From positions 1 through 37,605 of the IMG/VR virus record IMGVR_UViG_3300042319_001418: a DNA stretch of 37,605 nucleotides. One strand, written 5' to 3'. Source of the DNA: a virus. Position numbers and translations under genes: made by a program. Of the stretch, positions 3,319 to 23,918 are shown in pieces. Numbering within the stretch: position 1 is the stretch's first letter; every line of letters begins with the position of its first letter. Below the pieces are notes generated by a model that made no database searches, was not told the origin of the DNA, and was given only the letters and a program-made list of their open reading frames with translations.

Positions 3319-3323
3319 GCTGT

Positions 3324-4798: not shown

Positions 4799-6458
4799 TG
4801 TCTTCCAAAAACTGAGCACTCATGAGTAATACTTGTTCAAGGTGTTCAGTGGAGACTTCCACTCCCTGACTCTTGGCCAAGCTTCGAGCCAGTCTGATGG
4901 AATTCTTAATTTGCCGCCCATTAATCTCATGAACGCACAGTTTGTCCACATCAATATTTGTGGGCATACCAGATGCTGAGAGTAGGTTCTGCCATACCTG
5001 ACGTCGGTTAAGAGGTGTCAACTTGTCGTATTTGAGCGCAACACTGATTCTGCTATAAAATGCAGGATCAAATTCAGTAACCCGGTTTGTGGTGAGGAAC
5101 ATCACATCCTGATGGTATTCAGTCAACCTCAAAAATACACTGACGCAACTGTTGCGCATAATATCACCATGTCCGCGCTTCTCCAGGAAGATGTCAGCCT
5201 CGTCGATGAGGATCACAGCATTCCAGATCTGAGCCACATCCAGGATCTGACGCAGGCTCTTCTCCAGCTGAGCAGTGTCTGTGCCCAGCTCGCCTACTGC
5301 CACGCTGTAGAGCGGACGCTGGAGCAGTTCGCTCACACTTTCTGCTGTGAGGGTCTTGCCCACACCAGGATCACCATGCAACAGGAAGATGCAACCACCG
5401 CCCTTGCCGCTGATGATATCGCTGAACCCGCCACTGTTGTCTTCCACCAGGGCACGGATCATGGCCTTCTTCTCAGGATCCATCACCAGCTGATCATATG
5501 CCTCCGTGCGGAACTCAATGTCAGTTATGTCACTCACTGCAAAACGTCCCCACTGCTTGGCCATGAAGCTGAAGCCCTGAACGTAAGGGTCAGTCATCCA
5601 CAGCTGATCTGCAGGAATGGTGGCCATGGTGTTGTTTTCGCTGTTGCGTCGCATGCGGCCACCATCCTGGAACTGATCGTAGGTGGTGAGGTCCACCATG
5701 ATGCGGCCAGTGGCACGCATGGGCGTCCAATACGACCACTTCTTGACATCCATGTGACCAGTGAACTGCTTGTAGTGGCTGCCCACTGCCAGCTTTTCAT
5801 ACGCTGCACCACGCTGGGCAAGCTCTCGCTTCTGTGCCTCGGTGATCAGTGTGATGTTGAGGCTGTTGATGTCCTTGACGCCCTTGAAGGCATCCACCTG
5901 AGCACTGTCACGAGCAATGCCAAACTTGTTGCCAGTGCAGGTGATGTATTCGTATTCCACTTCCAGGTAGGTGCCAAAAAAGCTGGAGCGATAGGTGACA
6001 TCACAGATGCGAGCACCCTGCAGATGATTGCCATGGATCACAATCTCCTTGCCAGGAGACAGCAGCATGCGCAGGCCTGCAAAGTTCAGCACACCACGGG
6101 TCACCATGTTGTTCACCTGCTCCAAGTACTGCTGATTTTCAGCGCGCACCAGGTTCACCAGGTCTCGCAGACCAGGAGTGCGACTGTTGTGTTGCAGCTC
6201 ATGTTCCAGACTGGAGAGCTCATAGAACAGATCTGCAATGCTCACAACAGGTTCGCGATCATACAGGTTGGGGATCTCACGAGTGCAATCTCGAAGAGCA
6301 GTAATCAATCGGTCGTTCTTGAGTTCAACCATCTTTTCACCACCATCTTCTGTGGTTACCAGATTGTAGGCGCGTGTAGCAGCGGTTTTGGCAGACTTGG
6401 CGGTCTTGGCAGACTTGATTTCCATGGGAACAGTCTCTAGTGTTACAGTCTTGGTCAC
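4734..6458 (-). CDS. AAA+ ATPase resembling fungal DUF7025-AAA proteins
   Basis: The C-terminal half is a complete AAA+ module: Walker A GDPGVGKT (362-369), Walker B VILIDEAD (415-422), a T-T-N-R sensor 1 (456-459), F-Y-S-R-I finger region (about 468-471) and G-R-Q-I-K sensor 2 (514-518). The module's wording (LGTD, S-V-F-L-R-L-T-E-Y, F-D-P-A-F) matches, as I recall it, fungal AAA proteins that carry an N-terminal DUF7025. Residues 130-260 here also resemble DUF7025 (E-Y-E-Y-I ... G-N-K-F-G, A-Q-R-G-A-A-Y-E-K-L). A remodelling or unfolding role is likely; the substrate is unknown. The GTG start has AAGGA upstream. The last ~21 residues are encoded antisense to the homing endonuclease and probably do not belong to the ancestral protein. 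Confidence 0.85.
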   Translation of the reverse strand: MTKTVTLETVPMEIKSAKTAKSAKTAATRAYNLVTTEDGGEKMVELKNDRLITALRDCTREIPNLYDREPVVSIADLFYELSSLEHELQHNSRTPGLRDLVNLVRAENQQYLEQVNNMVTRGVLNFAGLRMLLSPGKEIVIHGNHLQGARICDVTYRSSFFGTYLEVEYEYITCTGNKFGIARDSAQVDAFKGVKDINSLNITLITEAQKRELAQRGAAYEKLAVGSHYKQFTGHMDVKKWSYWTPMRATGRIMVDLTTYDQFQDGGRMRRNSENNTMATIPADQLWMTDPYVQGFSFMAKQWGRFAVSDITDIEFRTEAYDQLVMDPEKKAMIRALVEDNSGGFSDIISGKGGGCIFLLHGDPGVGKTLTAESVSELLQRPLYSVAVGELGTDTAQLEKSLRQILDVAQIWNAVILIDEADIFLEKRGHGDIMRNSCVSVFLRLTEYHQDVMFLTTNRVTEFDPAFYSRISVALKYDKLTPLNRRQVWQNLLSASGMPTNIDVDKLCVHEINGRQIKNSIRLARSLAKSQGVEVSTEHLEQVLLMSAQFLEDIKYPCLSCVRETNHLPDILYS

Positions 6459-10596: not shown

Positions 10597-11595
10597 CTAC
10601 CAAGGGTTTGGATCGTTGCCTTCCAGGTAGCGATCAATAATATATTGTTTCCATTGATCCAATCTCAGGGCCCAATATTCGCCATTGATGAGAATTTCTC
10701 TGCCATCTATCATGGCATTTTCCAGATCGTCTGATCTGGGTTCCAGGTGGTTCATGATAGCCTCATCTGAGAGCAAATCCTCTTTGGTTTTGTTGAACTC
10801 ATCTGGTAATTTTAGAGGATTGCCATCGTTGAAATTGTTCTGGATTTCCCAAAACACATCATCATCATAATTGTACCCACTGATTTCCTTGCCCAGGGGA
10901 GTATCTCGCCATTCCGGCACATTATCCATCAACCAATTTCTCAATGAGATCATGAAATTGTCCTGCCAGCCAGCACCCACAAGTGAATCATAACTGCTGA
11001 GTATCAAATCCCCGACATTTGTGGTGAGCACATGAACTCCATTCTTGGGAAAAATACAATATATGTGGCTACCATAATTACTGGCAAAATCACGACTGGT
11101 GGTGGTGAAAATGCTGTTGCTTCTCAGTGCTTGGAAGCCATGGTTTCTCAGAGCTTGATCCAGTCTGTTGCTGATCTCTGTTCTGCTGTCCTTGGGTGCT
11201 CTGTCTTCTCTGCTGCGACCTTCAAAAACACTCACATCTGTTCTCAACCCTCTGTACAACATTTTGCCAGTGACTTTCATCACAGGCAGGAAGTCACTGC
11301 ACTCTCTGTCCAGAATGGCAAACATTCTGGTCATACCGTTGTCAGGACGCAGTTGCATGCGTTGCAAATAGGACACCTTGAGATCAATGCGTTTCTTGAG
11401 TTTTTCCAGACTGTCCTGTAATTGTTGATCTTTCTGGAACATGCTGCTCAAACTTTCGCTGGATGCCAAACTGTCCAGCAGTTGATCAATTTTATTCTGG
11501 ATGTCTTGTGCTCTGCGTAGAGATAGATCATCTCTGATTTTTTTCTCGCCAGGCTGCAGGAGAGAGGAGTTTTCCAAAAGATCCCATAATTTCAT
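10597..11595 (-). CDS. ADP-ribosyltransferase-like protein B with capsid-targeting-like N-terminus
   Basis: This is the most complete of three paralogs (332 residues). The N-terminus M-K-L-W-D-L-L-E ends in an L-x-E tripeptide, like the peptide removed from T4 internal proteins by the prohead protease. A helical region (20-110) follows. The catalytic-looking part has L-Y-R-G (Arg115), R-A-P-K-D-S, L-R-S-N-S-I-F-T-T-T-S (158-167), an I-F-P strand and I-N-G-E-Y-W-A-L (Glu306). Arg, STT/STS-like strand and Glu are the R-S-E triad of arginine-type ADP-ribosyltransferases. T4 Alt, an injected ADP-ribosyltransferase, is the obvious analogue. An AATAAATA motif lies at 11621-11628. The enzymatic role is inferred from motifs. 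Confidence 0.7.
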   Translation of the reverse strand: MKLWDLLENSSLLQPGEKKIRDDLSLRRAQDIQNKIDQLLDSLASSESLSSMFQKDQQLQDSLEKLKKRIDLKVSYLQRMQLRPDNGMTRMFAILDRECSDFLPVMKVTGKMLYRGLRTDVSVFEGRSREDRAPKDSRTEISNRLDQALRNHGFQALRSNSIFTTTSRDFASNYGSHIYCIFPKNGVHVLTTNVGDLILSSYDSLVGAGWQDNFMISLRNWLMDNVPEWRDTPLGKEISGYNYDDDVFWEIQNNFNDGNPLKLPDEFNKTKEDLLSDEAIMNHLEPRSDDLENAMIDGREILINGEYWALRLDQWKQYIIDRYLEGNDPNPW

Positions 11596-11620
11596 TTTAA
11601 ATTGCACCGCATGTTTGAAT

Positions 11621-11642: not shown

Positions 11643-12638
11643 TCAATCTTGGTTATAGATAAATGATTGTTCCAAAAACGTATTCCAAAGATCATACCTG
11701 AATGCCCAATATTCACCTCTGATGCGACACGTTTTGGAGGAAACAGTAAATTGATGGGCACTCAGTTGCTGTGGGTCAAAGGTGTTTATTATGGCCTGAT
11801 CATTAATAAAATCAGTCAGGCTCTTGTCGAATTGTGGAGGGATCTTCCAACGATTACCTCTATAGGAGAATTCCATTTTCAATTGGTGAAAAATTTCTAG
11901 ATAATTCTGTGCTTTGACAGCATTTCCTAGATCGTTATATCCTGATTCAGGGGTGTGGGATTTGACCCAAATTTTCAAGTCAAGAACGAATTCATCCAAT
12001 TCTGACCGATCTGCAAAATTTCCCATAGTCAAGGGGAGATTGTTGTATTGGAGTATTTGGAATCCATTTTTGGGAAAAATCACATAAGTGATGCCCCCAG
12101 CCCTCCTTGGATCCCACTGGTCTGTGGTGACCCACATGCTGTTGGTGAGGAAAGCAGTGTAACCTGAATTCTTGAGAGCTTGATCAAATGTTTGTGTGAT
12201 TTCTGGAAAGTTAATTTTATCTGGTACAAGGTATTCCGCTTCTGGCTGCGCATGTGCGTCAAACACTGAATCTTGTTGTTGGATACTGGTATACAGTAGA
12301 CGGTGGTTTTCCTTGATCAAATTGATCCACTCACTGCATTCCTGTTGCAGTATGGGTATGATTTTCTTTTGGCCCTGAGTGGGCTTATCACCCATTTTAT
12401 GCAGGTAGGAAATTTTCAAATTGATTCGATTGATTAGTTTTTCCAACGCTGTTTGAAGTGCAGTGTCTTGTTGAAATCTGTCCTTGAGAATTACACTATC
12501 GTTAAATGCCTTGTTCAATTTACGTATTTTATCCAGTATTGCAGTCAAATCTCTAGTGGTGATGTCAGTTCTGGTGCGTTTTGCACCAGGTGGCATTGGT
12601 TGATCGAACGATTGTTCAAATAGATCTAGTAATTTCAT
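11643..12638 (-). CDS. ADP-ribosyltransferase-like protein C with capsid-targeting-like N-terminus
   Basis: This 331-residue paralog lies directly upstream of B, as a tandem duplicate. The N-terminus M-K-L-L-D-L-F-E again ends in L-x-E. It keeps the P-G-A-K/P-G-E-K segment after the leader, the N-S-M-W-V-T-T strand, I-F-P-K-N-G and R-G-E-Y-W-A-F. The Arg of the L-Y-R-G strand is replaced by Thr117 (L-L-Y-T-S), so the NAD-binding Arg expected in the family is missing. The start at 12638 aligns with the paralogs; ATGs at 12647 and 12653 are alternatives. A TCTAAATA motif lies at 12667-12674. Confidence 0.65.
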   Translation of the reverse strand: MKLLDLFEQSFDQPMPPGAKRTRTDITTRDLTAILDKIRKLNKAFNDSVILKDRFQQDTALQTALEKLINRINLKISYLHKMGDKPTQGQKKIIPILQQECSEWINLIKENHRLLYTSIQQQDSVFDAHAQPEAEYLVPDKINFPEITQTFDQALKNSGYTAFLTNSMWVTTDQWDPRRAGGITYVIFPKNGFQILQYNNLPLTMGNFADRSELDEFVLDLKIWVKSHTPESGYNDLGNAVKAQNYLEIFHQLKMEFSYRGNRWKIPPQFDKSLTDFINDQAIINTFDPQQLSAHQFTVSSKTCRIRGEYWAFRYDLWNTFLEQSFIYNQD

Positions 12639-12666
12639 TGGCATCAATTCCAATAACTGTTTGGTG

Positions 12667-12791: not shown

Positions 12792-13022
12792 TTATGCCCA
12801 GGGATCCAATATGGCTTTTTTTCGCAACCAACGAATTCTGGCTTCAGCTTTTTTGCGGCGGCGCTTGGTGGTGGGCTTTTCATAAAACCTACGCTTGCGC
12901 AACTCTTTGGTAATACCTTCCTGATTCATTAGCCTCTTGAGGCGGCTCAATGCACCTTCCAGGTTACCATTCATAACTCTAACAAAAAGTCCCTTTTTGT
13001 TAAAAGTATATTGATCGTCCAT
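12792..13022 (-). CDS. rpsU: ribosomal protein bS21
   Basis: The 76-residue product matches bS21: V-R-V near the start, then a helix with L-E-G-A-L-S-R-L-K-R-L, E-L-R-K-R-R-F-Y-E-K-P-T-T-K-R-R-R-K-K-A-E-A and a basic helical tail. In bacteria bS21 sits next to the anti-Shine-Dalgarno end of 16S rRNA and helps select mRNAs. Large phages are known to carry bS21 genes, probably to replace the host copy and favour phage mRNAs. It has its own TTGACG-N17-TACACT promoter and AGAAGG before the ATG. Confidence 0.95.
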   Translation of the reverse strand: MDDQYTFNKKGLFVRVMNGNLEGALSRLKRLMNQEGITKELRKRRFYEKPTTKRRRKKAEARIRWLRKKAILDPWA

Positions 13023-13050
13023 GTTGTATTACCTTCTACTGAACAAACAT

Positions 13051-13079
13051 AGTGTAGAGGATTAGGATGATTACGTCAA
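13051..13079 (-). promoter_or_regulatory. sigma70-type promoter of bS21
   Basis: TTGACG (13074-13079) and TACACT (13051-13056) are 17 bp apart on the minus strand, just upstream of the bS21 gene and downstream of the 240-residue gene. Confidence 0.6.
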
Positions 13080-13084
13080 AATTA

Positions 13085-13807
13085 TTAGCTGATTTTGTTT
13101 TCCAACATGCCCATGTAGGCATCATAATTGTGCCCTGGCCAGGTGTGAAATCCATTCTTGGGAGTGGTTCTAAACTGATCCCAGAATCCACTGCCCATGA
13201 TGTGAGCATTGAACATTTCCATGACATTTTGTTCAGTGTCATTGAGGTGATTCATGCTATGATTGATTTCCTTCACCATTTCAATGCCTGGTTCTCCACC
13301 ATATGTGGCATTGGCTGGCAGTCTCTGCCTGCGTGGCTTCTTGCCGCGATAGAGACTTTCTATGTCGCCGCCTTTGAATATGTCAGTTTTGTACCAGTTG
13401 GGCTTGCCACCAGCATCCTGCACATATTCAATCACCACTGTGTCAATCATGCCAGCCCATTTGGGTTGATTGAGTATGGATTTCATGTTGCCCCACACAT
13501 CCTGATCAAAACCATTTATGTAGAGCACATTGCCTTGCCCGTGACCCACACCTGTGCGCCACTTGGCACCCTTGTCCCAGACAATTCTCAGGATGCCTTG
13601 CTTGTAGGCTTCCCAGAGTGCTCTCACAGGTTTGTTTTGAATATAGTCAGGCAATCCCAACTGATGCTGATGCTTCACCAGCCAGTCTCTGTGATTGCGT
13701 TCGGGTGTGATATCCACCAGCTTGTGGTTGATATAAAAATAGGCGTCGCCCAGTTCTGCTGGGCGAGCGCCTGATTGTTTAGCTTCTAGTAATTCCAAGA
13801 TCTTCAT
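13085..13807 (-). CDS. unknown protein with capsid-targeting-like N-terminus
   Basis: The 240-residue product begins M-K-I-L-E-L-L-E-A, matching the N-termini of the three ADP-ribosyltransferase-like proteins and again ending in L-x-E before Ala. The rest is not recognised. It has an early H-R-D-W-L-V-K-H helix, a V-L-Y-I-N-G-F-D strand-turn, a basic RGKKPRRQR stretch (about 157-165) and an N-H-S-M-N-H-L helix. The shared leader suggests a late protein packed in the capsid and cut by the prohead protease. An AATAAATA octamer ends exactly 5 nt before the ATG, and no Shine-Dalgarno sequence is present, so a leaderless late mRNA is predicted. Confidence 0.65.
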   Translation of the reverse strand: MKILELLEAKQSGARPAELGDAYFYINHKLVDITPERNHRDWLVKHQHQLGLPDYIQNKPVRALWEAYKQGILRIVWDKGAKWRTGVGHGQGNVLYINGFDQDVWGNMKSILNQPKWAGMIDTVVIEYVQDAGGKPNWYKTDIFKGGDIESLYRGKKPRRQRLPANATYGGEPGIEMVKEINHSMNHLNDTEQNVMEMFNAHIMGSGFWDQFRTTPKNGFHTWPGHNYDAYMGMLENKIS

Positions 13808-13829
13808 AGAGTTATTTATTGGCTCTATG
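13805..13829 (-). promoter_or_regulatory. late octamer in the loop of a hairpin that pairs the start codon
   Basis: CATAGAG (minus strand, 13823-13829) can pair with CTCTATG (13805-13811), which contains the start codon; AATAAATA (13813-13820) lies in the loop. A transcript entering from upstream would hide the ATG in the stem, while one started at the octamer would lack the 5' arm. The hairpin may also have been the original terminator of creA, whose leftover stop is at 13840. Confidence 0.5.
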
Positions 13830-13839
13830 AGGGAAATTC

Positions 13840-13920
13840 CTACTTGCTGTTCACTGCGATGGCTGTGACACTGTTGAAGGGGCTGCCATCAAGCAGCTTG
13901 GTGCTCCACACAAGGTAGAC
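13840..13920 (-). pseudogene. leftover original 3' end of creA
   Basis: Read on the minus strand, this 81-bp stretch encodes 26 residues from V-Y-L-V-W-S-T-K-L-L-D-G to N-S-K and ends in TAG. It matches the C-terminus of the intact creA gene at 14667 in 20 of 26 residues, yet 15 of those 20 shared residues use different codons. It has no start and lies beyond the HNH endonuclease, so it is the displaced end of the gene. Confidence 0.85.
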
Positions 13921-13924
13921 CTGG

Positions 13925-13932
13925 TATAAATA
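13925..13932 (+). promoter_or_regulatory. T4-type late promoter of the HNH endonuclease
   Basis: An exact TATAAATA octamer lies 43 nt upstream of the endonuclease ATG, immediately next to the creA leftover. The AAGGAG Shine-Dalgarno sequence is at 13961-13966. Confidence 0.75.
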
Positions 13933-13975
13933 GTTTATTACATGTGTAATAGACAAGACAAAGGAGAGGAGACAT

Positions 13976-14704
13976 ATGTTCCTGCAGAACAAATATACTA
14001 AATGGTATTTCAATATTGTGAATAATGCTCAAGGTCGCAATAGATCAGATCTTGCATTGCCCATGGAACGACATCACATTATACCAGATTGTATGCATCT
14101 GAATAGAAGACGCCACGGACCACCAGGGACTGTTCGGGGAAATCCAAATAACCCCAACAATTTAGTTTATCTAACCATTAAAGAACACTTCTTATGCCAC
14201 TGGCTATTGACTAAAATGGTTGATTCACAATATCTCAGACCGATGCATTATGCACTCCATAGGATGACATTTTGTCGTAGATCTAATACCAGGCTCATTG
14301 CAGGCTGGCAGGTCTGTAAAGCTAGAACGGCGATTCTTGCAGCAACAGTTGGACGCTCTCTATCAGAGGAAACAAAAAAGAAGATTAGCGCCTCCAAGAT
14401 TGGTAAACGCAAAGGTCTTAAGCAATCACCAGATCATGTTCAAAAAAGAGCTAACTCTCTTAAAGGAAAGGCTAAATCAGCAGAACATAAATCGAATATA
14501 TCTCAATCGAAAATGGGCAAGACATCATATATTCGAACAGATGAGACCAAGGAAAAAAATAGGAAATCCAGGATTGGAGCGGCAAAAGATTACAAATGGT
14601 GGAATGACGGAACTAAATCTACCTTATGTCCCGTTTGTCCAGGAGATGGGTGGAGTCAAGGACGATTTAAGGCGATTTCAAAGGAACTGCGGTTACCGAA
14701 TTAA
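13976..14704 (+). CDS. HNH homing endonuclease (free-standing)
   Basis: The first 90 residues form an HNH core: E-R-H-H-I-I-P (about 32-38), N-P-N-N-L-V-Y-L and K-E-H-F-L-C-H-W-L-L. Three NUMOD3-like modules follow (S-E-E-T-K-K-K-I-S, S-P-D-H-V-Q-K-R and S-A-E-H-K-S-N-I-S). The tail W-W-N-D-G-T-K ... C-P-G-D-G-W-S-Q-G-R is shared with the GIY-YIG enzyme at 3902. It should cut a site near the 3' end of creA in phages lacking it. Its last 38 bases overlap the recoded creA end on the other strand, tying the two together. The start has a strong AAGGAG and an upstream late promoter. Confidence 0.9.
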   Translation: MFLQNKYTKWYFNIVNNAQGRNRSDLALPMERHHIIPDCMHLNRRRHGPPGTVRGNPNNPNNLVYLTIKEHFLCHWLLTKMVDSQYLRPMHYALHRMTFCRRSNTRLIAGWQVCKARTAILAATVGRSLSEETKKKISASKIGKRKGLKQSPDHVQKRANSLKGKAKSAEHKSNISQSKMGKTSYIRTDETKEKNRKSRIGAAKDYKWWNDGTKSTLCPVCPGDGWSQGRFKAISKELRLPN

Positions 14705-15131
14705 ATGGACTCCCATCTATCAGCTTGGTAGACCAGACCAAATACACTAACGATTTGCGGTCAGGGTCCCAAAACCTGCTCACTCTCATGGTTTTGAACA
14801 AGAAGCTGGTTTTCTCTGTGAAGATCACTTCACCCTTGCGGCTGCGATCAATTTCACCTTTGATCTTGATCTCACCAGTTGCACGGCAGGCAATACTGAA
14901 GCGGCTGGGATCTTCAGCAATGCCCAGTGCACCTGTGATGCCACCAGTTTCTGCACGGCTGATATAACAACTGACTCCATCCACCTTGGGATCGTCAAAC
15001 CGTTCCACAACCACCCTATCACCACTGCCCAGTATGCGCCAGGTGGTGGTTACTTCACCCACTTGCGTTTGGGCCAAGGCTGTGGTTGCAGCACACGCCA
15101 GAGCTGCAATAGCCAAAAACATGTTTTTCAT
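14667..15131 (-). CDS. creA: CreA family periplasmic protein with recoded 3' end
   Basis: The 154-residue product has a signal peptide (M-K-N-M-F ... A-L-A, cleavage near residue 20). The mature part matches CreA: V-V-V-E-R-F-D-D-P, C-Y-I-S-R-A-x-T-G-G-I, L-G-I-A-E-D, T-S-F-L-F-K ... V-x-R-F-x-D and Y-L-V-W-S-x-K. CreA is a small periplasmic protein of proteobacteria with no firmly known role and is unusual in a phage. The last 26 or so codons differ in codon choice from the leftover original end at 13840-13920, as if replaced with the HNH gene. It lies 13 nt downstream of infC, with only a weak Shine-Dalgarno sequence. Confidence 0.9.
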   Translation of the reverse strand: MKNMFLAIAALACAATTALAQTQVGEVTTTWRILGSGDRVVVERFDDPKVDGVSCYISRAETGGITGALGIAEDPSRFSIACRATGEIKIKGEIDRSRKGEVIFTEKTSFLFKTMRVSRFWDPDRKSLVYLVWSTKLIDGSPFNSVTAVPLKSP

Positions 15132-15144
15132 GTGAGATGCTTTC

Positions 15145-15720
15145 TTACTTGACCACAGGCATCAGCAGCGCCTGGATGCTGTTGCCCTGCATGTTGGGCT
15201 CACGTTCCAGCTTGTGTTCACCCACAGCAGCCAGGAAGCGATTCATCACTTCCACACCCAGTTCACGATAGGCCATTTCTCTACCGCGAAACTTGATTAC
15301 AACCTTGACCTTGCAACTGTCATCCAGGAAGCTGCGTGCATTGCGAGCCTTGATCTCAATATCATGCTCGTCAGTGACAGGTCGCAGTTGCACTTCCTTG
15401 ATGTGAATTTCATTCTCTCGGTTCTTGCGAGCACGTTCCTTGGCTGCCTTCTTCTGCTCATACAGATACTTGTTGAGGTCCACAATCTTGGCAATCATGG
15501 GCTGCGCCTCAGTGTTGATTGCCACAAGATCCATGCCTTCCAGCCTGGCTCTGTTGAGCGCGTCATGTGTTGCCACAACACCCAAGTTGCTGCCATCCTG
15601 TAGGATCAGGCGCACCTGAGGTGAGCGAATGCGTTCGTTAGCCAGAGTCTGTTCTAGTGCCATGGTAGATGGTTGGTCCTTTTTGTTTCGAATATGATTA
15701 CTATATGGTATTTTCGCCAT
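15145..15720 (-). CDS. infC: translation initiation factor IF-3
   Basis: The 191-residue product has both IF-3 domains. The N-domain runs from A-N-E-R-I-R-S-P-Q-V-R-L-I through V-D-L-N-K-Y-L-Y-E. A basic linker follows (Q-K-K-A-A-K-E-R-A-R-K), then the C-domain with K-E-V-Q-L-R-P-V-T-D-E-H-D and K-V-V-I-K-F-R-G-R-E-M. IF-3 binds the 30S subunit, blocks early 50S joining and checks the start codon and initiator tRNA. The ATG at 15720 overlaps the clpX stop (TGATG). An ATG 19 codons in with AAGGA upstream is an alternative that would match bacterial IF-3 length better. With bS21, this gives the phage two factors acting on the 30S platform during initiation. Confidence 0.93.
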   Translation of the reverse strand: MAKIPYSNHIRNKKDQPSTMALEQTLANERIRSPQVRLILQDGSNLGVVATHDALNRARLEGMDLVAINTEAQPMIAKIVDLNKYLYEQKKAAKERARKNRENEIHIKEVQLRPVTDEHDIEIKARNARSFLDDSCKVKVVIKFRGREMAYRELGVEVMNRFLAAVGEHKLEREPNMQGNSIQALLMPVVK

Positions 15721-16955
15721 CAGTCAACCACTTTTTCTGGATCTTTTTGTTCAATCACAGTGCTTTTGTTTACAATCAATTTTTTCACTTGTTCCTGTTT
15801 GAGTTGGGGGATTAGATATTGGCTGTTGATGAGAATGCGCTCAATCACCCTACGCAGTCCTCGCGCACCAGTTCTGGTGCGGGTAACCTGACTGGCAATC
15901 TGATCCAGAGCCTCGTCTTCAAAAACCAGTTCAATGTTTTCCAGTTGAAACAGCTTTTGAAATTGCTTGGTAATGGCATTCTTGGGTTCCACCAAGATCC
16001 TTTTGAGAGTGGACTGATTGAGATCTTCAAAGGGCAGGATAACTGGGATACGACCAATCAATTCTGGAATCATGCCATAGGCAATCAGGTCTTCTGTTTC
16101 CACCTGCTGCACCAGTTGAAAACTCTTTTGTGCATCAGGAATCTTGAGATCACTGTTGAAGCCCATGCTGGTGGATTGATCTTCCAAACGGGCTTCAATC
16201 ACCTTGTTGAGTCCTTCAAAGGCACCACCCAGAATAAACAGGATGTTACGAGTGTTCATGCTGACAAATTCACCATTGGGATTTTTTCTGCCACCAGCAG
16301 GCTGAAATTTAACGTCACTGCCTTCAATAATCTTGAGTAATGCCTGTTGCACTCCTTCACCGCTGACATCTCGGGTGGTGCTGACATTCTCGCCACTCTT
16401 GCGACCAATCTTGTCAATTTCATCCACAAAGATGATGCCCTTTTGAGCTTTTTCCAGATCATTTTCTGCTGCCTGAAACAGTCTGGTGAGACATTCTTCT
16501 GGATCCAGGCCCACATAACCAGTTTGGCTCAAACTGGTGGCGTCCACCACAGCAAAAGGCACATTGAGGATCTGGGCCAGAGTATTCACCATGTGAGACT
16601 TGCCCACACCACTGCTGCCAATCATGAGAATGTTGCTTTTGTCTATGGTTACACCATCCACCACTGGATGAGCCAGTCTCTTGAGATGGTTGTAGATGGC
16701 CACACCCAGGGTTTTTTTGGCCAGTGTTTGCCCAATCACGTGTTCATTTAGGTAATCTACAATCACTGGTGGGGTTAGATTAATGTCTGACTGTGTGTGA
16801 TCAGCAGCCTCTTCTGGAGGATGAATCACCTGACCACACAGATCAATGCACTCATTACAAATGAATGCACCATTGCCACTCACAAGAGTTTTCACTTGTG
16901 TTTGGTTTTTGTTACAAAAACTACAGGAGTGAATCATCTTGATGTTGGCTGTCAT
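15720..16955 (-). CDS. clpX: ClpX unfoldase
   Basis: The 411-residue protein is full length. It has the C4 zinc domain (Cys11, Cys14, Cys33, Cys36), Walker A G-S-S-G-V-G-K-S (113-120), pore loop G-Y-V-G (146-149), Walker B I-I-F-V-D-E-I-D (174-181) and G-A-R-G-L-R sensor 2. Differences from the E. coli protein are G-S-S-G-V-G-K-S for G-P-T-G-S-G-K-T, R-K-N (223-225) for the R-K-H pore loop, and M-G-F (264-266) for the I-G-F loop that docks on ClpP. The last keeps the hydrophobic-Gly-Phe pattern, so docking on host ClpP remains plausible. The pore change could alter substrate choice. Its ATG overlaps the upstream stop, and it overlaps infC downstream. Confidence 0.95.
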
Positions 16956-17407
16956 GATTGTTCTCCAACTACATGTTGTTTGACCAACTGTAGCAGCATG
17001 TGTTCAAAAATCATGCTGCTTTGATTATACAAGGGAATCTGGGCAAATTCTGCCAGGCTGTTGATGGTTTCATCACTGCCCACATGAACATATCTCAAAC
17101 AGTGTGTGATGCTGCTGACAAGAGCAATATTGAATGCGTCTTGTGCATGAGCAATCACTGCATTCATATGAAAGTGATTGATCCAGATCCAATCCACCTG
17201 TTCCTTGGTATAGGGCGGTGGTTCCACCACCATGTAAAATGCCCAGTCTGTGGTAGGATATAGATCCTGTACCAGAGAGATGTAGTCCTGAGCCTGTGAT
17301 TCACTGTGGGCCAACAGCATAACTTTCACTGTGTTGGCAGGAGGTAACCACACACTGGGATATGTAACCAGGTGACCATATGTCATCTGACTCTTGTCAA
17401 AACTCAT
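16952..17407 (-). CDS. protein of unknown function
   Basis: The 151-residue product has no recognised domain. It has an N-terminal beta-like part (V-T-Y-P-S-V-W-L-P-P, V-K-V-M-L-L-A-H-S), a D-W-I-W-I-N-H-F-H-M-N segment and a helical C-terminal third. It looks soluble. It heads the operon with clpX, infC and creA: its stop overlaps the clpX start (ATGA), and a TTGACA-N16-TAAACT promoter lies upstream. A role linked to ClpX or translation is possible from position only. Confidence 0.65.
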   Translation of the reverse strand: MSFDKSQMTYGHLVTYPSVWLPPANTVKVMLLAHSESQAQDYISLVQDLYPTTDWAFYMVVEPPPYTKEQVDWIWINHFHMNAVIAHAQDAFNIALVSSITHCLRYVHVGSDETINSLAEFAQIPLYNQSSMIFEHMLLQLVKQHVVGEQS

Positions 17408-17438
17408 TGTATCGCTAACCCCTCGTTGTTTGTACTAG

Positions 17439-17466
17439 AGTTTACTTGTTCAATGAGTTCTGTCAA
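17439..17466 (-). promoter_or_regulatory. sigma70-type promoter of the clpX-infC-creA operon
   Basis: TTGACA (17461-17466) and TAAACT (17439-17444) are 16 bp apart on the minus strand, upstream of the ATG at 17407. Confidence 0.6.
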
Positions 17467-17469
17467 AGC

Positions 17470-18615
17470 TTATTTCAACAACAGTGGAGTGACAGTGATG
17501 TTGGGTTCCACATTGGCCACAACCGCATCCAATTTTTCAGCCAGAACGGGCAAAATCTGGGTGGGGTTGACTCTTACACACTTGTCACCAAAATTTGTGA
17601 TTGTGGGATCAAAGATTTCCTGATTGCCACTATAATCTTCTGTCAATGCTCTGGCAATCAATCTCTTGATGCAGTCTGCACCCAACAAATAGTCTCCGGG
17701 ACTGGTTTCATCTTCTGTGCTGAGGTAGTTGGCGCGATCATAGGCTACTGTGAAACTCAGTGTATCCAGGGGACTTGTACCATCAATTGTACCATCTTTG
17801 TCAAACGTGCCCAGATACACAGGACTGATCAGCTCTCCCAGCTTGTTGACGATGCCATCCCATCTCATGTTGGCACGTTCTTTGTCAATGCTTTCAGCAT
17901 AGGTGAGAGGTGTGCCACCATGATTGCCAGTGAGAAATCCAATGTCAGAGATCAAACCAGTGTCACCATTCTGCAATACCCAGGGTTGTCCCACAGCACT
18001 GCACAGTTGCAGAGTTTGATTGGGCACAGTGCCATCCCCCACTACATATGCAACAACCTGATGTGCCCAGGTGAGGCTGTTGATGTCTGCTGCACAGCTA
18101 GCAGCAGTTGTACTGCTCCAAGTGACTTCGACTCCGTTGATGAGAATGTCCTCTGCAGCAACTGGTGCTGTAAATCCAGTGCCAGTTTCACAAGGCCAAT
18201 CTCTGTAAACACTTTCAGTCAATCCCAGCTCGGCCAAACCACCTGATCCTTCTTTCAACCAAATGTTACTGCCTTCATAACCCACCCAATTGCGCAGTGT
18301 GATGCAGGTGCTGATCACTGTGTTGTCAGCATACACACCAGTCTGTGGTGTCAGTGCATTGATGTCACTAATGGCATCAGCAAGAGCAGCGCCACTGAAT
18401 GCCACCAACACATCATTTATGTAAAGTGTTTTGAATAGTGTGAGGACAGGAGTGTCCACAGTTCCTGTGATCAAAACTGTTCTGTTGTATTTCTCAGCAG
18501 TGGTGTTGTCAATTGCGCCAGCATCTGTGGCATCTGTTGCCGCTGTCCAGTTTGCTGGTGCAGTCATGTCAATTTCCACTCTGTAATAACGTGGAGTAAG
18601 GGTTGCTGTTACCAT
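17470..18615 (-). CDS. probable structural (virion) protein
   Basis: The 381-residue product is rich in Thr, Ala, Asn and Asp, beta-strand-like, with few Lys, typical of capsid or tail accessory proteins. Two segments, Y-I-N-D-V-L-V-A-F-S-G ... D-I-N-A-L (about 67-90) and L-I-N-G-V-E-V-T-W-S-S ... D-I-N-S-L (about 160-182), repeat an I-N-G/D-V-x-V ... D-I-N pattern. The pattern recalls the flagellin/hook IN motif, in this case perhaps a shared phage beta domain. The ATG at 18615 has AAGGAAAGAG just before it. A GCTAAATA motif lies about 30 nt upstream. The role is inferred from composition. Confidence 0.55.
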   Translation of the reverse strand: MVTATLTPRYYRVEIDMTAPANWTAATDATDAGAIDNTTAEKYNRTVLITGTVDTPVLTLFKTLYINDVLVAFSGAALADAISDINALTPQTGVYADNTVISTCITLRNWVGYEGSNIWLKEGSGGLAELGLTESVYRDWPCETGTGFTAPVAAEDILINGVEVTWSSTTAASCAADINSLTWAHQVVAYVVGDGTVPNQTLQLCSAVGQPWVLQNGDTGLISDIGFLTGNHGGTPLTYAESIDKERANMRWDGIVNKLGELISPVYLGTFDKDGTIDGTSPLDTLSFTVAYDRANYLSTEDETSPGDYLLGADCIKRLIARALTEDYSGNQEIFDPTITNFGDKCVRVNPTQILPVLAEKLDAVVANVEPNITVTPLLLK

Positions 18616-18687
18616 CTCTTTCCTTGAGCCTGTTGGGATATGTTTGTTGAATATTTAGCTCATGGAAAGAGATTTTTGCTAGATCAT

Positions 18688-19134
18688 CTATTCACACACA
18701 AAAGTCTGCAGATCAGTGGTGTAAATCACCCTGGGAATAGAAAAATCCAGGATACACTTCTGGCATCCCTTGCAGGGACGACTCATGCCCAGAACCCAGC
18801 TCTTGCTGGTTTCACTGGGCCTCTTGATGCGCAACACATAAAGAGTGCTCTTGGCAAGGTCCTGAGGCACACGCCTCTTGAGAAAGTTGTAGATGGCATG
18901 GGTTTCTGCATGCCAAAACAGGCTGTCATTGTTTTTCCCAAATTTATGCTGAAAAGGATGGGATCTCAGACTGTTGTTGCCAAAACTGATAATGTTTCCT
19001 CGAATGGCCACAGCAGCAGCCAGCCTGGCATTGGCTACAGGTGTGACATCTTCTGCCATTGTGTGCAGAATATTCATGATCTTAATGTCTCGATCAGTTA
19101 CCGGCGCTACCGGCGCGATCGCTGCGGGATCCAT
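18688..19134 (-). CDS. phage cytidine/deoxycytidylate deaminase-like protein
   Basis: The zinc-binding deaminase signature is complete: W-H-A-E (H-A-E, about residues 75-77) and P-C-K-G-C-Q-K-C (P-C-x-x-C). The R-S-H-P-F-Q-x-K-F-G-K-N segment before H-A-E is, as I recall it, characteristic of a phage deaminase family distinct from T4 dCMP deaminase. It probably deaminates dCMP or a related base or nucleotide. The ATG at 19134 has GGAG ten bases upstream, and a TTGACA-N16-TATCAT promoter is in place. The gene once followed the queD-like gene directly; the endonuclease insertion now separates them. Confidence 0.85.
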   Translation of the reverse strand: MDPAAIAPVAPVTDRDIKIMNILHTMAEDVTPVANARLAAAVAIRGNIISFGNNSLRSHPFQHKFGKNNDSLFWHAETHAIYNFLKRRVPQDLAKSTLYVLRIKRPSETSKSWVLGMSRPCKGCQKCILDFSIPRVIYTTDLQTFVCE

Positions 19135-19168
19135 GTGGATTTTGTCTCCGAAATGCTTTTATACAAGC

Positions 19169-19216
19169 ATGATACTGGTGATTTGTGTGATGTCAACAGG
19201 ATTTATCCTGTTGACA
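19169..19216 (-). promoter_or_regulatory. terminator hairpin fused to a promoter
   Basis: A perfect 12-bp inverted repeat (19191-19202 with 19205-19216) contains TTGACA (19191-19196) in its downstream arm. TATCAT (19169-19174) follows after 16 bp. The hairpin lies 33 nt after the leftover queD stop and was probably that gene's terminator; the promoter serves the deaminase. Confidence 0.65.
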
Positions 19217-19248
19217 CTGTCAACTAACACATGTTCGCAGCTGAGAGT

Positions 19249-19350
19249 TTATTCCCAGCCTTCGAATAAATTTTCATCCCATTCGCGATGCCCTTCACGG
19301 AAAGCCATGTTTGATTGAGTTTCCCTCACTTCCACTCTGAAGGCTAAATA
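19249..19350 (-). pseudogene. leftover original 3' end of the queD-like gene
   Basis: Read on the minus strand this encodes Y-L-A-F-R-V-E-V-R-E-T-Q-S-N-M-A-F-R-E-G-H-R-E ... G-W-E and ends in TAA. It aligns with the C-terminus of the intact gene ending at 20149 (V-Q-V-R-E-T-D-A-N-M-A-M-R-V-G-H-R-E): 16 of 24 residues match, and 10 of those 16 use different codons. It has no usable start and lies beyond the GIY-YIG endonuclease. Confidence 0.85.
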
Positions 19351-19410
19351 AGGTGTCCTTCGCGGTTCTCCCAAACCCAAGGACTCTATTAGTAAGAAGG
19401 AACCAACAGC

Positions 19411-20112
19411 ATGAATATTTACGCAGATAATCTGCCTTACACCTACTTCCTTATGTGGAAGTCTAGCAAATTAAAATATTATGGTTGCCAATATGGCAAG
19501 AAGGCTAACCCACAGAATATTCTATCAGGAACCTACCGAACCTCTTCAAAATATGTCAAACAGTATTGGAATGATTTTGGCGCTCCAGATATAATCGTTA
19601 TTCACAGAACGTTTCAATCATCTAAAGAATGTAGAGAGTTTGAACAATTATATCTAAAAAGAGTAAGAGCACCCTATAAAGAAGATTGGCTCAACAAGAC
19701 AGATAACAAAGCTATAGTAACAGAAAACTATAACCCAGAATCTTGGCAGAAAAGCCATGCTAGTCGAGCAAGACATAGACAAGAAGATCCTGAATTCAAT
19801 AAACTTATGAACGATAGGTTCGTTAAAATGATGCATAGTGAGAGTGCGACCGCCAAGCGTAAGGAAACATTTATCAAAACACAGCACTCTAAAGGAGCCA
19901 ACAATCCTAGATATGGAGTTACAGTAGGCGAAGATACACGTAAGAAGATGTCTATCAAGCGAAAGTCTCAATATGAATTCAATGTTTTAAGATCAAAAGA
20001 TCTCAATAAGACTAATAAAGTCTGTGAACATTGTGGTAAATCAGGACTCAATGCAGGGAACTATAAAAGATGGCATGGATCTAAATGCCCTAAAAAACCA
20101 ACATGTGTCTGA
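19411..20112 (+). CDS. GIY-YIG homing endonuclease (free-standing)
   Basis: The N-terminal domain has Y-T-Y-F-L-M-W followed by K-Y-Y-G-C-Q-Y-G, a GIY-YIG variant. It then has W-N-D-F-G-A-P-D-I and the catalytic-type E-F-E-Q-L-Y-L helix. The middle has a NUMOD-like segment (G-E-D-T-R-K-K-M-S). The C-terminus ends in a zinc-finger-like C-E-H-C ... H-G-S-K-C (about 208-228). The ATG has AAGGA upstream. It lies between the intact 3' end of the queD-like gene and the leftover original 3' end, and shares a bidirectional terminator with it. The target is presumably the 3' part of queD. Confidence 0.8.
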   Translation: MNIYADNLPYTYFLMWKSSKLKYYGCQYGKKANPQNILSGTYRTSSKYVKQYWNDFGAPDIIVIHRTFQSSKECREFEQLYLKRVRAPYKEDWLNKTDNKAIVTENYNPESWQKSHASRARHRQEDPEFNKLMNDRFVKMMHSESATAKRKETFIKTQHSKGANNPRYGVTVGEDTRKKMSIKRKSQYEFNVLRSKDLNKTNKVCEHCGKSGLNAGNYKRWHGSKCPKKPTCV

Positions 20113-20147
20113 TTGTTTAGGGGGTAGTAATACTACCCCCTAAACAA
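20113..20147. terminator. bidirectional terminator between endonuclease and queD-like gene
   Basis: A perfect inverted repeat with 17-bp arms (20113-20129 and 20131-20147) and one central base lies between the two convergent stops. The top strand is flanked by TTGTTTAGGGGG and CCCCCTAAACAAA. It replaces the original terminator, now left at 19191-19216. Confidence 0.75.
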
Positions 20148-20148
20148 A

Positions 20149-20631
20149 TTATGAGAATAAATCCTCGTTATCCTCTCTATGGCCTACTCTCATAGCCATA
20201 TTTGCATCAGTCTCGCGAACTTGAACCATGCTGCACCAAATTCTTTCGGCTTCTGCTGCACCATATTGAGGCAAGAACACTCCATTTATATATTTGTATA
20301 GGAAATCAGCAATCCCCTCACAACCAGTGCGCTCAACTTCTGTAATTTTGGCTAGCCCTAATTCTCCTAGCTTTTTCATGTCTTCGTAGTGAGGATCATC
20401 AAAAGCCAATAAGAGAGTATGATCGAACCATTCCTCGAGTTTGTCCTTCAAAGGGCGAAGTCCACCAAAATCCATGCACCAGTTACGTGCATCCAATGTA
20501 TCGCATTCAAATTCCAAATGAAAGCTGAGGGAATAACCATGTATAAAACGACAGAGGCTATCTGCCCGCCATTGACGATACGCTACTGGTCCAATTTGTC
20601 TATAAGTTTTTGTGCTAATCCATTTCGCCAT
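20149..20631 (-). CDS. queD: 6-carboxy-tetrahydropterin synthase (QueD)-like protein
   Basis: The 160-residue product resembles phage members of the 6-pyruvoyl-tetrahydropterin synthase family. It has Y-R-Q-W-R-A-D-S-L-C-R-F-I-H-G-Y-S-L-S-F-H, then a C-x-x-L-D strand, M-D-F-G-G-L, F-D-H-T-L-L-L ... D-D-P, E-V-E ... C-E-G-I-A-D-F-L-Y and V-x-V-R-E-T-x-x-N. QueD makes a precursor of preQ0, used for queuosine and, in some phages, for 7-deazaguanine DNA bases. The family normally has His just before the catalytic Cys and a second His in H-G-H; here they are Leu and Tyr, so metal binding may be altered. The start at 20631 has AGGGG upstream. The last ~25 codons appear to have been replaced together with the neighbouring endonuclease. 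Confidence 0.8.
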   Translation of the reverse strand: MAKWISTKTYRQIGPVAYRQWRADSLCRFIHGYSLSFHLEFECDTLDARNWCMDFGGLRPLKDKLEEWFDHTLLLAFDDPHYEDMKKLGELGLAKITEVERTGCEGIADFLYKYINGVFLPQYGAAEAERIWCSMVQVRETDANMAMRVGHREDNEDLFS

Positions 20632-20723
20632 CTCTTGTCCCCTGTTGTATGAGCGAGTTTGATGACTGTGCAGAATTTTTAGAGTGGGTTGATTACAGTC
20701 ATAGTCCACTGGCAATATTTACA

Positions 20724-20753
20724 ACTATACCCATCAATCATCCTGTTAGTCAA
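20724..20753 (-). promoter_or_regulatory. sigma70-type promoter of the queD-like gene
   Basis: TTGACT (20748-20753) overlaps the stop of the upstream gene and is followed after 18 bp by TATAGT (20724-20729). The leader to the ATG at 20631 is about 85 nt. Confidence 0.5.
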
Positions 20754-20979
20754 GGCTTTCCTGCAATTTCCAATAAACAATAGCATCCAACAATTGCTCA
20801 ATATCCCCCACATAATCCCATTCCATCAAGGATATCTTGCCCCAATTAGCATCCTGAGCTTGCCAATTAAGATTAGGCGTGTTCCAATGAATGATTTCTC
20901 TCAACTCTAGGAAATAATCATTGTGAGACAGTTGACGACTATCATAGGTAACCCCATACCTGAATACCTTGCCAAACAT
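20746..20979 (-). CDS. small protein of unknown function
   Basis: The 77-residue product is acidic and aromatic (five Trp), with an L-E-L-R-E-I-I-H-W helix and a C-terminal D-I-E-Q-L-L-D-A-I-V-Y-W-K-L helix. No family is recognised. It is preceded at 36 nt by another small minus-strand gene. Its stop codon overlaps the -35 box of the queD promoter. Confidence 0.55.
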   Translation of the reverse strand: MFGKVFRYGVTYDSRQLSHNDYFLELREIIHWNTPNLNWQAQDANWGKISLMEWDYVGDIEQLLDAIVYWKLQESLD

Positions 20980-21014
20980 TTGTGTTTTTTCTCTGGATCA
21001 GTGCTGATACGTTC

Positions 21015-21182
21015 TCAGGTGTAGGTGATATCCCAGCCAGGAACCTTGTAAACCAGGGTGTTGTACCTGGGGCTGCCCCACATCCAATCTTGGTTCACTC
21101 TATGTTTGCTTTTTGTAATCAGGCTGCACATGACCCTAACATCATCCAGGTTCAACATTTCCGCTCTCCATTTGACATTCAT
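21015..21182 (-). CDS. small protein of unknown function
   Basis: A 55-residue frame starts at the ATG at 21182 (an alternative ATG lies at 21197). The product begins M-N-V-K-W-R-A-E-M-L-N and ends with a Trp/Tyr-rich stretch (Q-D-W-M-W-G-S-P ... P-G-W-D-I-T-Y-T). Composition is protein-like but no Shine-Dalgarno sequence is seen, and the plus-strand gene at 21232 begins just 50 nt away in the opposite direction. It is a tentative gene. Confidence 0.4.
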   Translation of the reverse strand: MNVKWRAEMLNLDDVRVMCSLITKSKHRVNQDWMWGSPRYNTLVYKVPGWDITYT

Positions 21183-21194
21183 GTTGCGGTGCAG

Positions 21195-21202
21195 CATAAA
21201 TA
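21195..21202 (+). promoter_or_regulatory. late-promoter-like octamer
   Basis: CATAAATA, one mismatch from TATAAATA, lies 29 nt upstream of the ATG at 21232, which has a perfect AAGGAGG Shine-Dalgarno sequence. Confidence 0.6.
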
Positions 21203-21231
21203 CTCACACACATTCAACAAGGAGGTACTCA

Positions 21232-21408
21232 ATGAATCAACAGTTTTATCAAAACATGACTGATTATGTTACAGCAATCAACCGTGTCAACATGGAGGCT
21301 GCTGCACAAACAGTCAAGGCCACACAGGAATTTGCACTGGAGGCTTGGAAACTGCATCCACTACATGATGTTTTTGAATCCAACACCAGCAAAAAGACAT
21401 CCAAGTGA
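21232..21408 (+). CDS. 58-residue helical protein, probably highly expressed
   Basis: The product is a single long amphipathic helix region (Y-V-T-A-I-N-R-V-N-M-E-A-A-A-Q-T-V-K-A-T-Q-E-F-A) with a short polar tail. The helix resembles phasin-type segments, but the protein is too short for a firm call. Expression signals are unusually strong for this window: a late-type octamer, AAGGAGG seven to eight bases before the ATG, and a textbook intrinsic terminator right after the stop. It is a plus-strand, single-gene unit in a minus-strand region. A small virion-associated or regulatory protein made in bulk is the likeliest reading. Confidence 0.75.
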   Translation: MNQQFYQNMTDYVTAINRVNMEAAAQTVKATQEFALEAWKLHPLHDVFESNTSKKTSK

Positions 21409-21411
21409 CCC

Positions 21412-21453
21412 CAATCAGGGTGTATGAAATAATCATACACCCTGATTGTTTTT
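21412..21453 (+). terminator. intrinsic terminator
   Basis: A perfect 16-bp stem (21412-21427 with 21433-21448), a 5-nt AATAA loop and TTTTT. It ends the 58-residue gene. It is the strongest Rho-independent terminator in the window. Confidence 0.92.
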
Positions 21454-21474
21454 GTGCATGTGAGCATTTAGCCT

Positions 21475-21514
21475 TCACGCGGAATCCGCGCCAGCTTGTT
21501 GCGCGGTAGTTCAC
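21475..21514 (+). repeat. possible solitary IS200/IS605-type right end
   Basis: A GGAAT leader, a CCGCGC/GCGCGG stem with a 9-nt loop and the terminal TAGTTCAC (21507-21514) copy the layout of the right end of the tnpB element at 29989 (GGAAG, stem, TAGTTCAC). No tnpA or tnpB lies next to it. It may be a decayed element or an orphan omega-RNA-like scaffold. Confidence 0.4.
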
Positions 21515-21539
21515 TATAATACGCACATGACTTTCCATA

Positions 21540-21944
21540 TTAGCTGGTTCTTTCTACCAGTGGATACACAACCAGATGGGGCTTGTTCTTTTTGCGAGCA
21601 TAATCATAGGTGTACCACGTTCCACCATGTTTTTGAGGAGACATTTGAAATGGCACAACCAACAGGAAATCAGTTTCGTCCACAATGTTCCTGTTCCTGG
21701 CAAAATATTTCAAGGGTTCTCTGGTCTGGTCACTATCAAACCAACCTCTCAGTTCATCTTTCACAGGAGGATGACATACAATCTCAATGCCCAGACTGAG
21801 GGCCAGTGCTGCCACCTCTACATCCACACCCCTACAATCACCATGGTGTAGCTCTGTTATGCCTGGTGTGGTCAAAAAATCCCACACCAGTTGAGTTTGA
21901 TGGTCAGTCATGCCACTGCGCGCCCCTGTGACTCCCACCTTCAT
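21540..21944 (-). CDS. SLOG-family nucleotide-binding protein
   Basis: The 134-residue protein begins K-V-G-V-T-G-A-R-S-G-M and has H-H-G-D-C-R-G-V-D, a strand with E-I-V-C-H-P-P, R-E-P-L-K-Y-F-A-R-N-R-N-I-V-D-E-T-D and G-G-T-W-Y-T ... A-R-K-K-N-K-P. That is the Rossmann-like core of the SMF/DprA-LOG (SLOG) superfamily, including the G-G-T phosphate loop and R-N pair. These proteins bind nucleotides or their derivatives, and some are tied to NAD/ADP-ribose signalling; the exact ligand here is unknown. Its start overlaps the stop of the upstream gene (ATGG/TAC region at 21941-21944), so the two are probably coupled. Confidence 0.8.
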   Translation of the reverse strand: MKVGVTGARSGMTDHQTQLVWDFLTTPGITELHHGDCRGVDVEVAALALSLGIEIVCHPPVKDELRGWFDSDQTREPLKYFARNRNIVDETDFLLVVPFQMSPQKHGGTWYTYDYARKKNKPHLVVYPLVERTS

Positions 21945-22297
21945 GGTATGGTCTTTTCAGCTAGTTGTTGTTCTCGCCACTCCTTAGCTTCTTGATCAGC
22001 GTCCTCATCAGAGAACCATCTGTTGACATCATAGTTCCAATGCCGGCAATCGTAGAGCTGCATCATGAACATATAGCCCAACACGTTGATTTCCAGTCGG
22101 GGGCCTTGATGATCACTACCCCACCATCTGAGATCCAATGCCACCTCAAAAATATCACTAGACTCAAATTTGCTGATCTGAAGCTCAAAGCTTTTGTTCT
22201 TACTCACCTGGCGGTCAATAAAGGCATAATCCTTGTTCTCAAAATCTTCATTGGGTTTGAACCAGGGGTTGGAAAGTTGTAAACGGAAATTGATCAT
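21941..22297 (-). CDS. protein of unknown function
   Basis: The 118-residue product starts M-I-N-F-R-L-Q-L-S-N-P-W-F and appears beta-rich up to residue 90 (S-F-E-L-Q-I, F-E-V-A-L-D-L-R-W-W, L-E-I-N-V-L-G-Y), ending in a charged helix. I recall phage proteins beginning in the same way, without known function. It overlaps the SLOG gene downstream by 4 nt and the upstream gene by one base, so it belongs to a coupled run of three. Confidence 0.6.
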   Translation of the reverse strand: MINFRLQLSNPWFKPNEDFENKDYAFIDRQVSKNKSFELQISKFESSDIFEVALDLRWWGSDHQGPRLEINVLGYMFMMQLYDCRHWNYDVNRWFSDEDADQEAKEWREQQLAEKTIP

Positions 22298-22557
22298 CAG
22301 GCATTTTCTTTCAGGTGGGTTCTATATTTGACCCCAAACAACACTGTGTCCTTGAGGGGTGGCATTCGGGCCTGGCCTCGCTGTTCTCTGTGAGAATCCA
22401 ACCACCCTGAGTTGGTAGGCATAGGTGGCCAACTTCCGGTATTCTGGGCAACTCTTGCCAATCTCAGGGTGTTGTTGAGATGACTGGCAGCATATGTTTT
22501 GCCCTTGAAGGGTCCTTCAAGAGCATAGTCATAATCCCAACTAGGTTGACTACCCAT
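22297..22557 (-). CDS. small basic protein of unknown function
   Basis: The 86-residue product is Gly/Pro/Arg-rich in the middle and has W-D-Y-D-Y-A-L-E-G-P-F-K-G at the start. No family is recognised. The stop overlaps the next start. A G/T-rich stretch precedes the ATG at 22557 without a clear Shine-Dalgarno sequence. Confidence 0.55.
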   Translation of the reverse strand: MGSQPSWDYDYALEGPFKGKTYAASHLNNTLRLARVAQNTGSWPPMPTNSGWLDSHREQRGQARMPPLKDTVLFGVKYRTHLKENA

Positions 22558-23878: not shown

Positions 23879-23918
23879 TCATAATAGCATTAGATCCCAG
23901 TTTGTCAACCAGTTTTTT
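23879..23918 (-). promoter_or_regulatory. duplicated 40-bp promoter, copy 2
   Basis: TTGACA (23903-23908), 16 bp, then TATTAT (23881-23886). The block includes the last codons of purN: the purN TGA (23905-23907) is part of the -35 box. It drives the 54-residue gene. Confidence 0.8.

Follow-up and report, generated by a model that had tools for sequence, protein, structure and literature searches.

An HNH homing endonuclease gene between a foreign and a native version of the creA 3′ end in a phage genome

In the phage sequence analysed here (IMG/VR record IMGVR_UViG_3300042319_001418; 37,605 nucleotides, the whole of which we call the window), an HNH homing endonuclease gene lies between two versions of the 3′ end of creA. 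As in the mobile open reading frames (ORFs) of fungal mitochondria, the end that is attached to the gene is foreign, by its codon usage, and the end that is stranded beyond the endonuclease is native. The reading that we prefer, and to which we assign a probability of roughly 0.8, is that the endonuclease gene was inserted into the creA frame together with a foreign 26-codon end, leaving CreA full length and the native end stranded. Similar layouts recur in other phages and viral contigs, and the creA case and that of phage ICP1 are both real and well supported. Such a layout has apparently gone unreported in phages so far, its known counterpart being the fungal mobile ORFs.

The original prediction, made from the letters of the sequence, was of an intact creA, a startless second creA end and an endonuclease between the two, and matches to Pfam and PHROG 655 together with translation confirm all three (Table 1). 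The remnant, which begins at creA codon 128, reads VYLVWSTKLLDGSPFNSVTAIAVNSK and the attached end VYLVWSTKLIDGSPFNSVTAVPLKSP, each followed by a stop. The two are equal in length (26 codons and a stop) and align without gaps; a recount gave the predicted 20 identical residues among 26, with 15 of these 20 in different codons, and the longest exact word common to both ends is nine bases. In a same-strand protein comparison of the flanks of the endonuclease, the two ends match at 46.6 bits, and the match is therefore beyond chance when set against reversed-peptide decoys, none of which reached 28 bits over a first set of 105 endonuclease ORFs (two reached 30.0 bits in a second set of 85). Independent codon choice would on average place 12.0 of the 20 shared residues in different codons (P = 0.10 for the observed 15), so the codons look saturated rather than ‘anti-matched’; ordinary divergence explains the differences, and there is no sign that recoding was selected.

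Table 1. Positions of the features discussed (in the window, except where another source is named).
Feature	Position	Strand	Basis or remark
creA, intact (154 aa), hybrid of native body and foreign end	14667–15131	−	Pfam PF05981 (CreA), E = 1.2e-53; codon profile
Foreign (recoded) creA end, 26 codons and stop	14667–14747	−	Codon score; could extend to 14753 (codon 126 on a zero-based count)
Native creA 3′ end left behind, startless, 26 codons and stop	13840–13920	−	Translation; phage-typical codon score
Left edge of inserted unit, and leader	13921–13975	+	Sequence
HNH homing endonuclease gene, 242 aa	13976–14704	+	PHROG 655 (homing endonuclease), E = 5.9e-27 over residues 2–216
Second case: SEG-like homing endonuclease	19411–20112	+	28% identical to annotated SEG-like homing endonuclease of Stenotrophomonas phage Ps15
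Second case: intact queD	20149–20715	−	PHROG 2389 (QueD-like), E = 1.6e-37; Pfam PTPS
Second case: startless queD end, VEVRETQSNMAFREGHREWDENLFEGWE and stop	19249–19335	−	35.8 bits to queD end
Contrast: third homing endonuclease	3896–4798	+	PHROG 314, E = 9.3e-39
Contrast: AAA ATPase gene, last 65 bases antisense to endonuclease 3896–4798	4734–6458	−	Pfam AAA
L253, mirror layout: N-terminal remnant	2389–2535 (L253)		
L253, mirror layout: HNH gene	2540–3187 (L253)		
L253, mirror layout: complete gene	3175–3489 (L253)		
gp53 endonuclease and complete RNase H gene between two pieces of a different RNase H	20425–22453 (ICP1, NC_015157; L284)		

The 3′ part of the endonuclease ORF is antisense to the creA end, with an overlap of 38 bases. 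Its leader contains TATAAATA at 13925–13932, which we take to be a T4-type late promoter motif, and a purine-rich AAAGGAGAGGAG ahead of the start codon. The former occurs twice in the window (0.29 expected; as many in 6 of 100 shuffles), and a sigma-70 scan gave no site at the leader and two in the region as a whole, with 3.1 expected. The creA frame runs to its stop without an insert, no splicing element of the group I intron or intein kind surrounds the endonuclease, and an Rfam search of 13000–20800 returned no intron family at E ≤ 1.

The residues H33, H34, N62, H71 and H75 are present in the HNH protein and invariant in an alignment of 10 sequences (the protein and nine relatives). Similarity and conserved HNH residues together place it as a predicted member of the phage HNH homing endonucleases (PHROG 655). 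Pfam gave no family at E ≤ 0.001, and a comparison with solved structures gave eight weak matches (best E = 0.1), with no endonuclease among them. By eye, ‘PGDGWSxGR’ is common to the C-terminal modules of this protein and of the third endonuclease of the window, and ‘NYxRWHGxxC’ to the SEG-like protein and an HNH protein in L010. C-terminal modules thus appear to be common to different endonuclease families, which suggests domain swapping.

Codon usage identifies the foreign end. Scored with a codon model of 28 phage genes of the window (picked by eye from the ORF list, creA excluded), the attached end stands at −0.449, the remnant at +0.044 and the creA body at +0.021; none of 536 background windows of 26 codons is as low as the attached end. 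With leave-one-out models and all overlapping windows, the attached end scores −0.408, and 6 of 6,790 windows are as low, five at the start of the gene 18688–19134 and one at the end of the AAA gene, antisense to another endonuclease. The serine codon TCG, chosen after looking, makes up 4 of 419 serine codons in the 28 phage genes and three of five in creA codons 126–153 (P = 8.6e-6); it is absent from the eight in creA codons 0–125 and from the four in the remnant. Codon usage within creA breaks best at codon 125, and several cuts between 118 and 126 do nearly as well, so the foreign stretch starts within a few codons of the point at which the remnant begins. Against a background of automatic gene calls, in which wrong-frame or shadow ORFs are present and some 11.7 kb of the phage are counted twice, the result is weaker, with the attached end in the lowest 2.8% (38 of 1,366 windows). 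The antisense overlap does not explain the low score, because creA codons 126–140, which lie outside it, have a low score too (−0.342; 38 of 2,642 windows at or below it). As body and remnant fit the codon usage of the phage and the attached end does not, the endonuclease lies inside the original frame of creA, accompanied by a foreign 26-codon end.

To survey the occurrence of such layouts, we matched the sequence to the left of each endonuclease ORF (the same sets of 105 and 85) against that to its right, as translations of the same strand. Target-end duplications are present at 4 of these 190 ORFs, from which redundancy was not removed: at creA, at queD in the same window, and at the loci L077 and L253. 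With ICP1, four layouts other than creA are thus found in phages or viral contigs, and the part of the original prediction that knew of no equivalent in phages does not stand. In a control scan, the two ends of each of 152 ORFs were searched for a same-strand copy within 1.6 kb; the ORFs came from the window and three contigs, with some 11.7 kb counted twice. The scan gave three matches of at least 35 bits, all with an endonuclease between the copies, and three more at 30.0–30.8 bits, between neighbouring genes without an endonuclease; L253 is absent from its matches. Several flank matches were rejected, that in L184 as tRNA genes and those in L061, L042, L026 and L189, judged from the aligned pieces, as tandem endonucleases or repeats within an endonuclease. 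Seven further endonuclease neighbourhoods from named phages (L255–L261) gave one match, of 26.9 bits, in L258; it is not among the four duplications, nor are flank matches in L072 and L102.

At queD, the stops of the gene and of the SEG-like endonuclease are 36 bases apart, and the endonuclease matches PHROG 655 over residues 140–229 only (E = 4.6e-5). Codon scores are low in the queD body too (13 of 149 windows as low), and neither at queD nor at L077 do codon usage and relatives settle which end is foreign. A SEG-like endonuclease 59% identical to that of the window adjoins queD in L098 (2501–3698), where no queD remnant was seen. The L077 target is a gene of unknown function that is common to Synechococcus phages, and its endonuclease belongs to PHROG 314/NUMOD3. 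In five cyanophage relatives of this target (5 phages out of 271 matching records), the attached end is the nearer in all five, so these cyanophages do not show that the remnant is native; none has an endonuclease annotated directly beside the gene, and S-SCSM2R has one annotated about 1.3 kb upstream. In the mirror layout of L253, the remnant fits the codon usage of the contig; the remainder of the gene on the right has a lower score still than the duplicated part at its beginning, and the foreign stretch may therefore extend beyond that part.

The third endonuclease of the window provides a contrast. Among the 28 gene ends, that of the AAA gene scores lowest in codon usage (−0.412), and the tail of the gene differs from those of three Rhizobium phage homologues; around the endonuclease itself, no flank duplicate, AAA remnant or rescue was found.

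An end-duplication scan of 215 ORFs in T4 (positions 1–50,000) and two stretches of ICP1, with, by our own count, six annotated homing or HNH-type endonucleases in the T4 stretch and six in the two ICP1 stretches together, gave one layout with an endonuclease in ICP1 and none in the T4 stretch. Two T4 pairs at 30.8 bits (motB with its upstream region; dexA.1 with dexA.2) have no endonuclease between their members. In ICP1, a cultured phage, one RNase H gene is present as an N-terminal and a C-terminal piece, and the interval between them holds gp53 (domains CapR and T5orf172), a small ORF and a complete gene for another RNase H; the candidate rescue is here an entire gene, located 5′ of the endonuclease. 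In Vibrio phage vB_CoeS_P1, a single uninterrupted rnh immediately precedes the primase/helicase and DNA polymerase genes, and the 5.1-kb stretch compared has no annotated endonuclease; the two ICP1 pieces match the product of this rnh at 39 of 45 (87%) and 42 of 54 (78%) residues, and the complete ICP1 RNase H at 66 of 147 (45%). The two pieces together lack about 50 residues of the interrupted gene. The two phages are not close overall (helicase, 213 of 553 residues), and all 82 phage records that match the 3.2-kb ICP1 stretch contain at least 80% of it. ICP1 is an independent case that allows comparison with a phage whose gene is uninterrupted, and by similarity to vB_CoeS_P1 its two stranded pieces are native and its complete RNase H gene foreign.

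For creA, the preferred explanation would run as follows. The endonuclease gene would have entered the reading frame about 26 codons ahead of the stop, already joined to a foreign version of the last 26 codons; these would have been fused in frame to the native body, so that full-length CreA is still encoded, and the native 26 codons would have stayed beyond the endonuclease as a startless remnant. The enzyme presumably cuts creA near the junction, and the break would be repaired from a donor in which the endonuclease is linked to a diverged creA end, inserting the unit. Because the two ends have diverged, the new one would be expected to resist cutting, and it could not easily recombine the endonuclease away. 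We infer that the creA unit is mobile. Gene replacement would in this way do for the creA unit what splicing does for an intron or intein, allowing a gene to be invaded without being destroyed. That the endonuclease came with a foreign creA 3′ end and left the native end behind, as had been predicted, is supported by codon usage and by the ICP1 case. Points against the explanation are the small share of surveyed endonuclease ORFs with the layout (4 of 190), the absence of a visible rescue at the third endonuclease of the window and the weaker codon result with automatic gene calls.

A narrower version of the same event, which overlaps this explanation, has prospects somewhat short of even. Under it, repair was a one-sided accident, the foreign end is the product of plain co-conversion, and no rescue module moves. 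The endonuclease would be a normal intergenic gene in the donor, next to the donor's creA, in the manner of T4 SegF or SegG; one side of the break would have recombined in conserved creA codons and the other would have been joined without homology, stranding the tail of the recipient. Co-conversion of flanks is on record for free-standing phage endonucleases in the available part of a T4 review (PMC2988022). The loss of residues from the interrupted ICP1 gene is what resection might cause, the arrangement in L098 is the one expected of an intergenic donor, and the low scores of the queD body point in the same direction. Yet the two creA ends share their starting codon position and are equally long, so that apparently two codons were lost at most, and similar layouts occur at unrelated genes.

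Insertion with a foreign end also fares better than a tandem duplication of creA in which an old second copy was truncated and the endonuclease landed between the copies later, which we consider improbable. The phage does have neighbouring genes with weakly similar ends (10597–11607 and 11643–12653), but in codon usage the creA body resembles the remnant and not the attached end, the break falling near codon 125, and every one of the three stronger end duplications of the 152-ORF control holds an endonuclease between its copies. That the attached end is native and the remnant foreign is highly improbable: an isoleucine follows STKL in the attached end and in 9 of the 14 relatives displayed (the remnant has leucine), and mean residue identity to 51 CreA relatives is 0.58 for the attached end versus 0.53 for the remnant, but the codon tests contradict this direction. 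By nucleotide identity, the same relatives (1 phage and 50 bacterial loci) are too distant to separate the ends, with the remnant nearer in 23, the attached end nearer in 24 and 4 undecided.

Among known systems, T4 mobA moves together with a protective change in its target, gene 60, this change being a 50-nt segment that is bypassed by the ribosome and not a replaced coding end; the creA unit is similar in having a linked change in the target and different in the kind of change. Nearer in layout are the mobile ORFs of fungal mitochondria. According to the accessible part of the source, these endonuclease genes interrupt a gene and supply it with a diverged foreign 3′ end in place of its own, which persists beyond the endonuclease (PMC3630166). 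The precedent that had been named, Allomyces atp6, has this same arrangement there, as have Glomus atp6, atp9, cox2 and nad3; the Glomus ORFs encode three LAGLIDADG enzymes and one GIY-YIG enzyme and follow the inserted end, in phase in two of the four genes. The creA and queD endonucleases likewise lie between two versions of one gene end. Unlike those of Glomus, they are of the HNH and SEG-like kinds and convergent with the gene, at creA even overlapping the gene end in antisense, and 5′-end and whole-gene layouts also occur, in other phages.

The free-standing seg and mob endonucleases of T4-type phages are, in the portion of the review at hand, intronless genes beside their targets that co-convert the flanks, and the split genes that it treats are Aeh1 nrdA, T4 gene 60 and phage 25 gene 43; unlike at creA, these accounts, as far as available, include no case in which a gene end was replaced and its native version stayed behind (PMC2988022). 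Barth et al. 2023 count gp53 among the ICP1 HNH and T5orf172 endonucleases and, in the part of the text available, make no mention of two rnh pieces around it (PMC10448857). The engineered home-and-rescue drive HomeR, a synthetic split Cas9 drive in Drosophila, places its cassette, by the part of its description available, within the 3′ coding portion of a gene and supplies that gene's 3′ end in re-coded form (PMC7968924), a likeness to the creA unit in plan only. Our literature search on phage endonucleases, fungi and gene drives, which covered few subscription journals, returned no phage report of the layout by title or abstract.

A more general proposal, for and against which we find the case evenly balanced, is that double-stranded DNA phages carry intronless, self-rescuing homing cassettes, each an endonuclease gene linked to a diverged version, partial (3′ or 5′ end) or complete, of the gene that it interrupts. 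The HNH, SEG-like and T5orf172 families would have reached this state independently; the cassettes would be nature's equivalent of the home-and-rescue gene drive and would add a third mode of life within genes to those of introns and inteins. If so, endonuclease genes could colonize the interiors of protein genes without self-splicing by supplying a replacement for the severed part, stray duplicate gene ends in phages would be explained, hybrid genes of mixed ancestry would be made, and rescue-type gene drives would have a natural, testable model.

Sister contigs contain the whole creA locus in two cases and up to 14647 in a third, and all are identical to the window, so they provide no version of the phage lacking the endonuclease gene for comparison. 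The third contig (3300034272_001747) stops within the endonuclease gene, 20 bases from the creA stop, and this assembly break could stem from a variant without the insert. In other phages with creA, no endonuclease ORF was seen by eye within 3 kb in L004, which has a GIY-YIG match under the family cut-off about 4 kb away, and none is annotated within 2 kb in Vibrio phage 2.275.O and Rhizobium phage RHph_I1_18. A strict pattern of the creA end says little, because it occurs once in 11 of 52 creA loci and is absent from the other 41.

Elsewhere in the window, the first codons of the gene 18688–19134 (minus strand; positions 19040–19134) are as atypical in codon usage as the foreign creA end. Host-like genes lie at 15145–16955 and 23905–35653, among them those for IF-3 and a ClpX-like protein by Pfam and, judged by eye only, purN-, pyrG-, purM- and dnaK-like ORFs.
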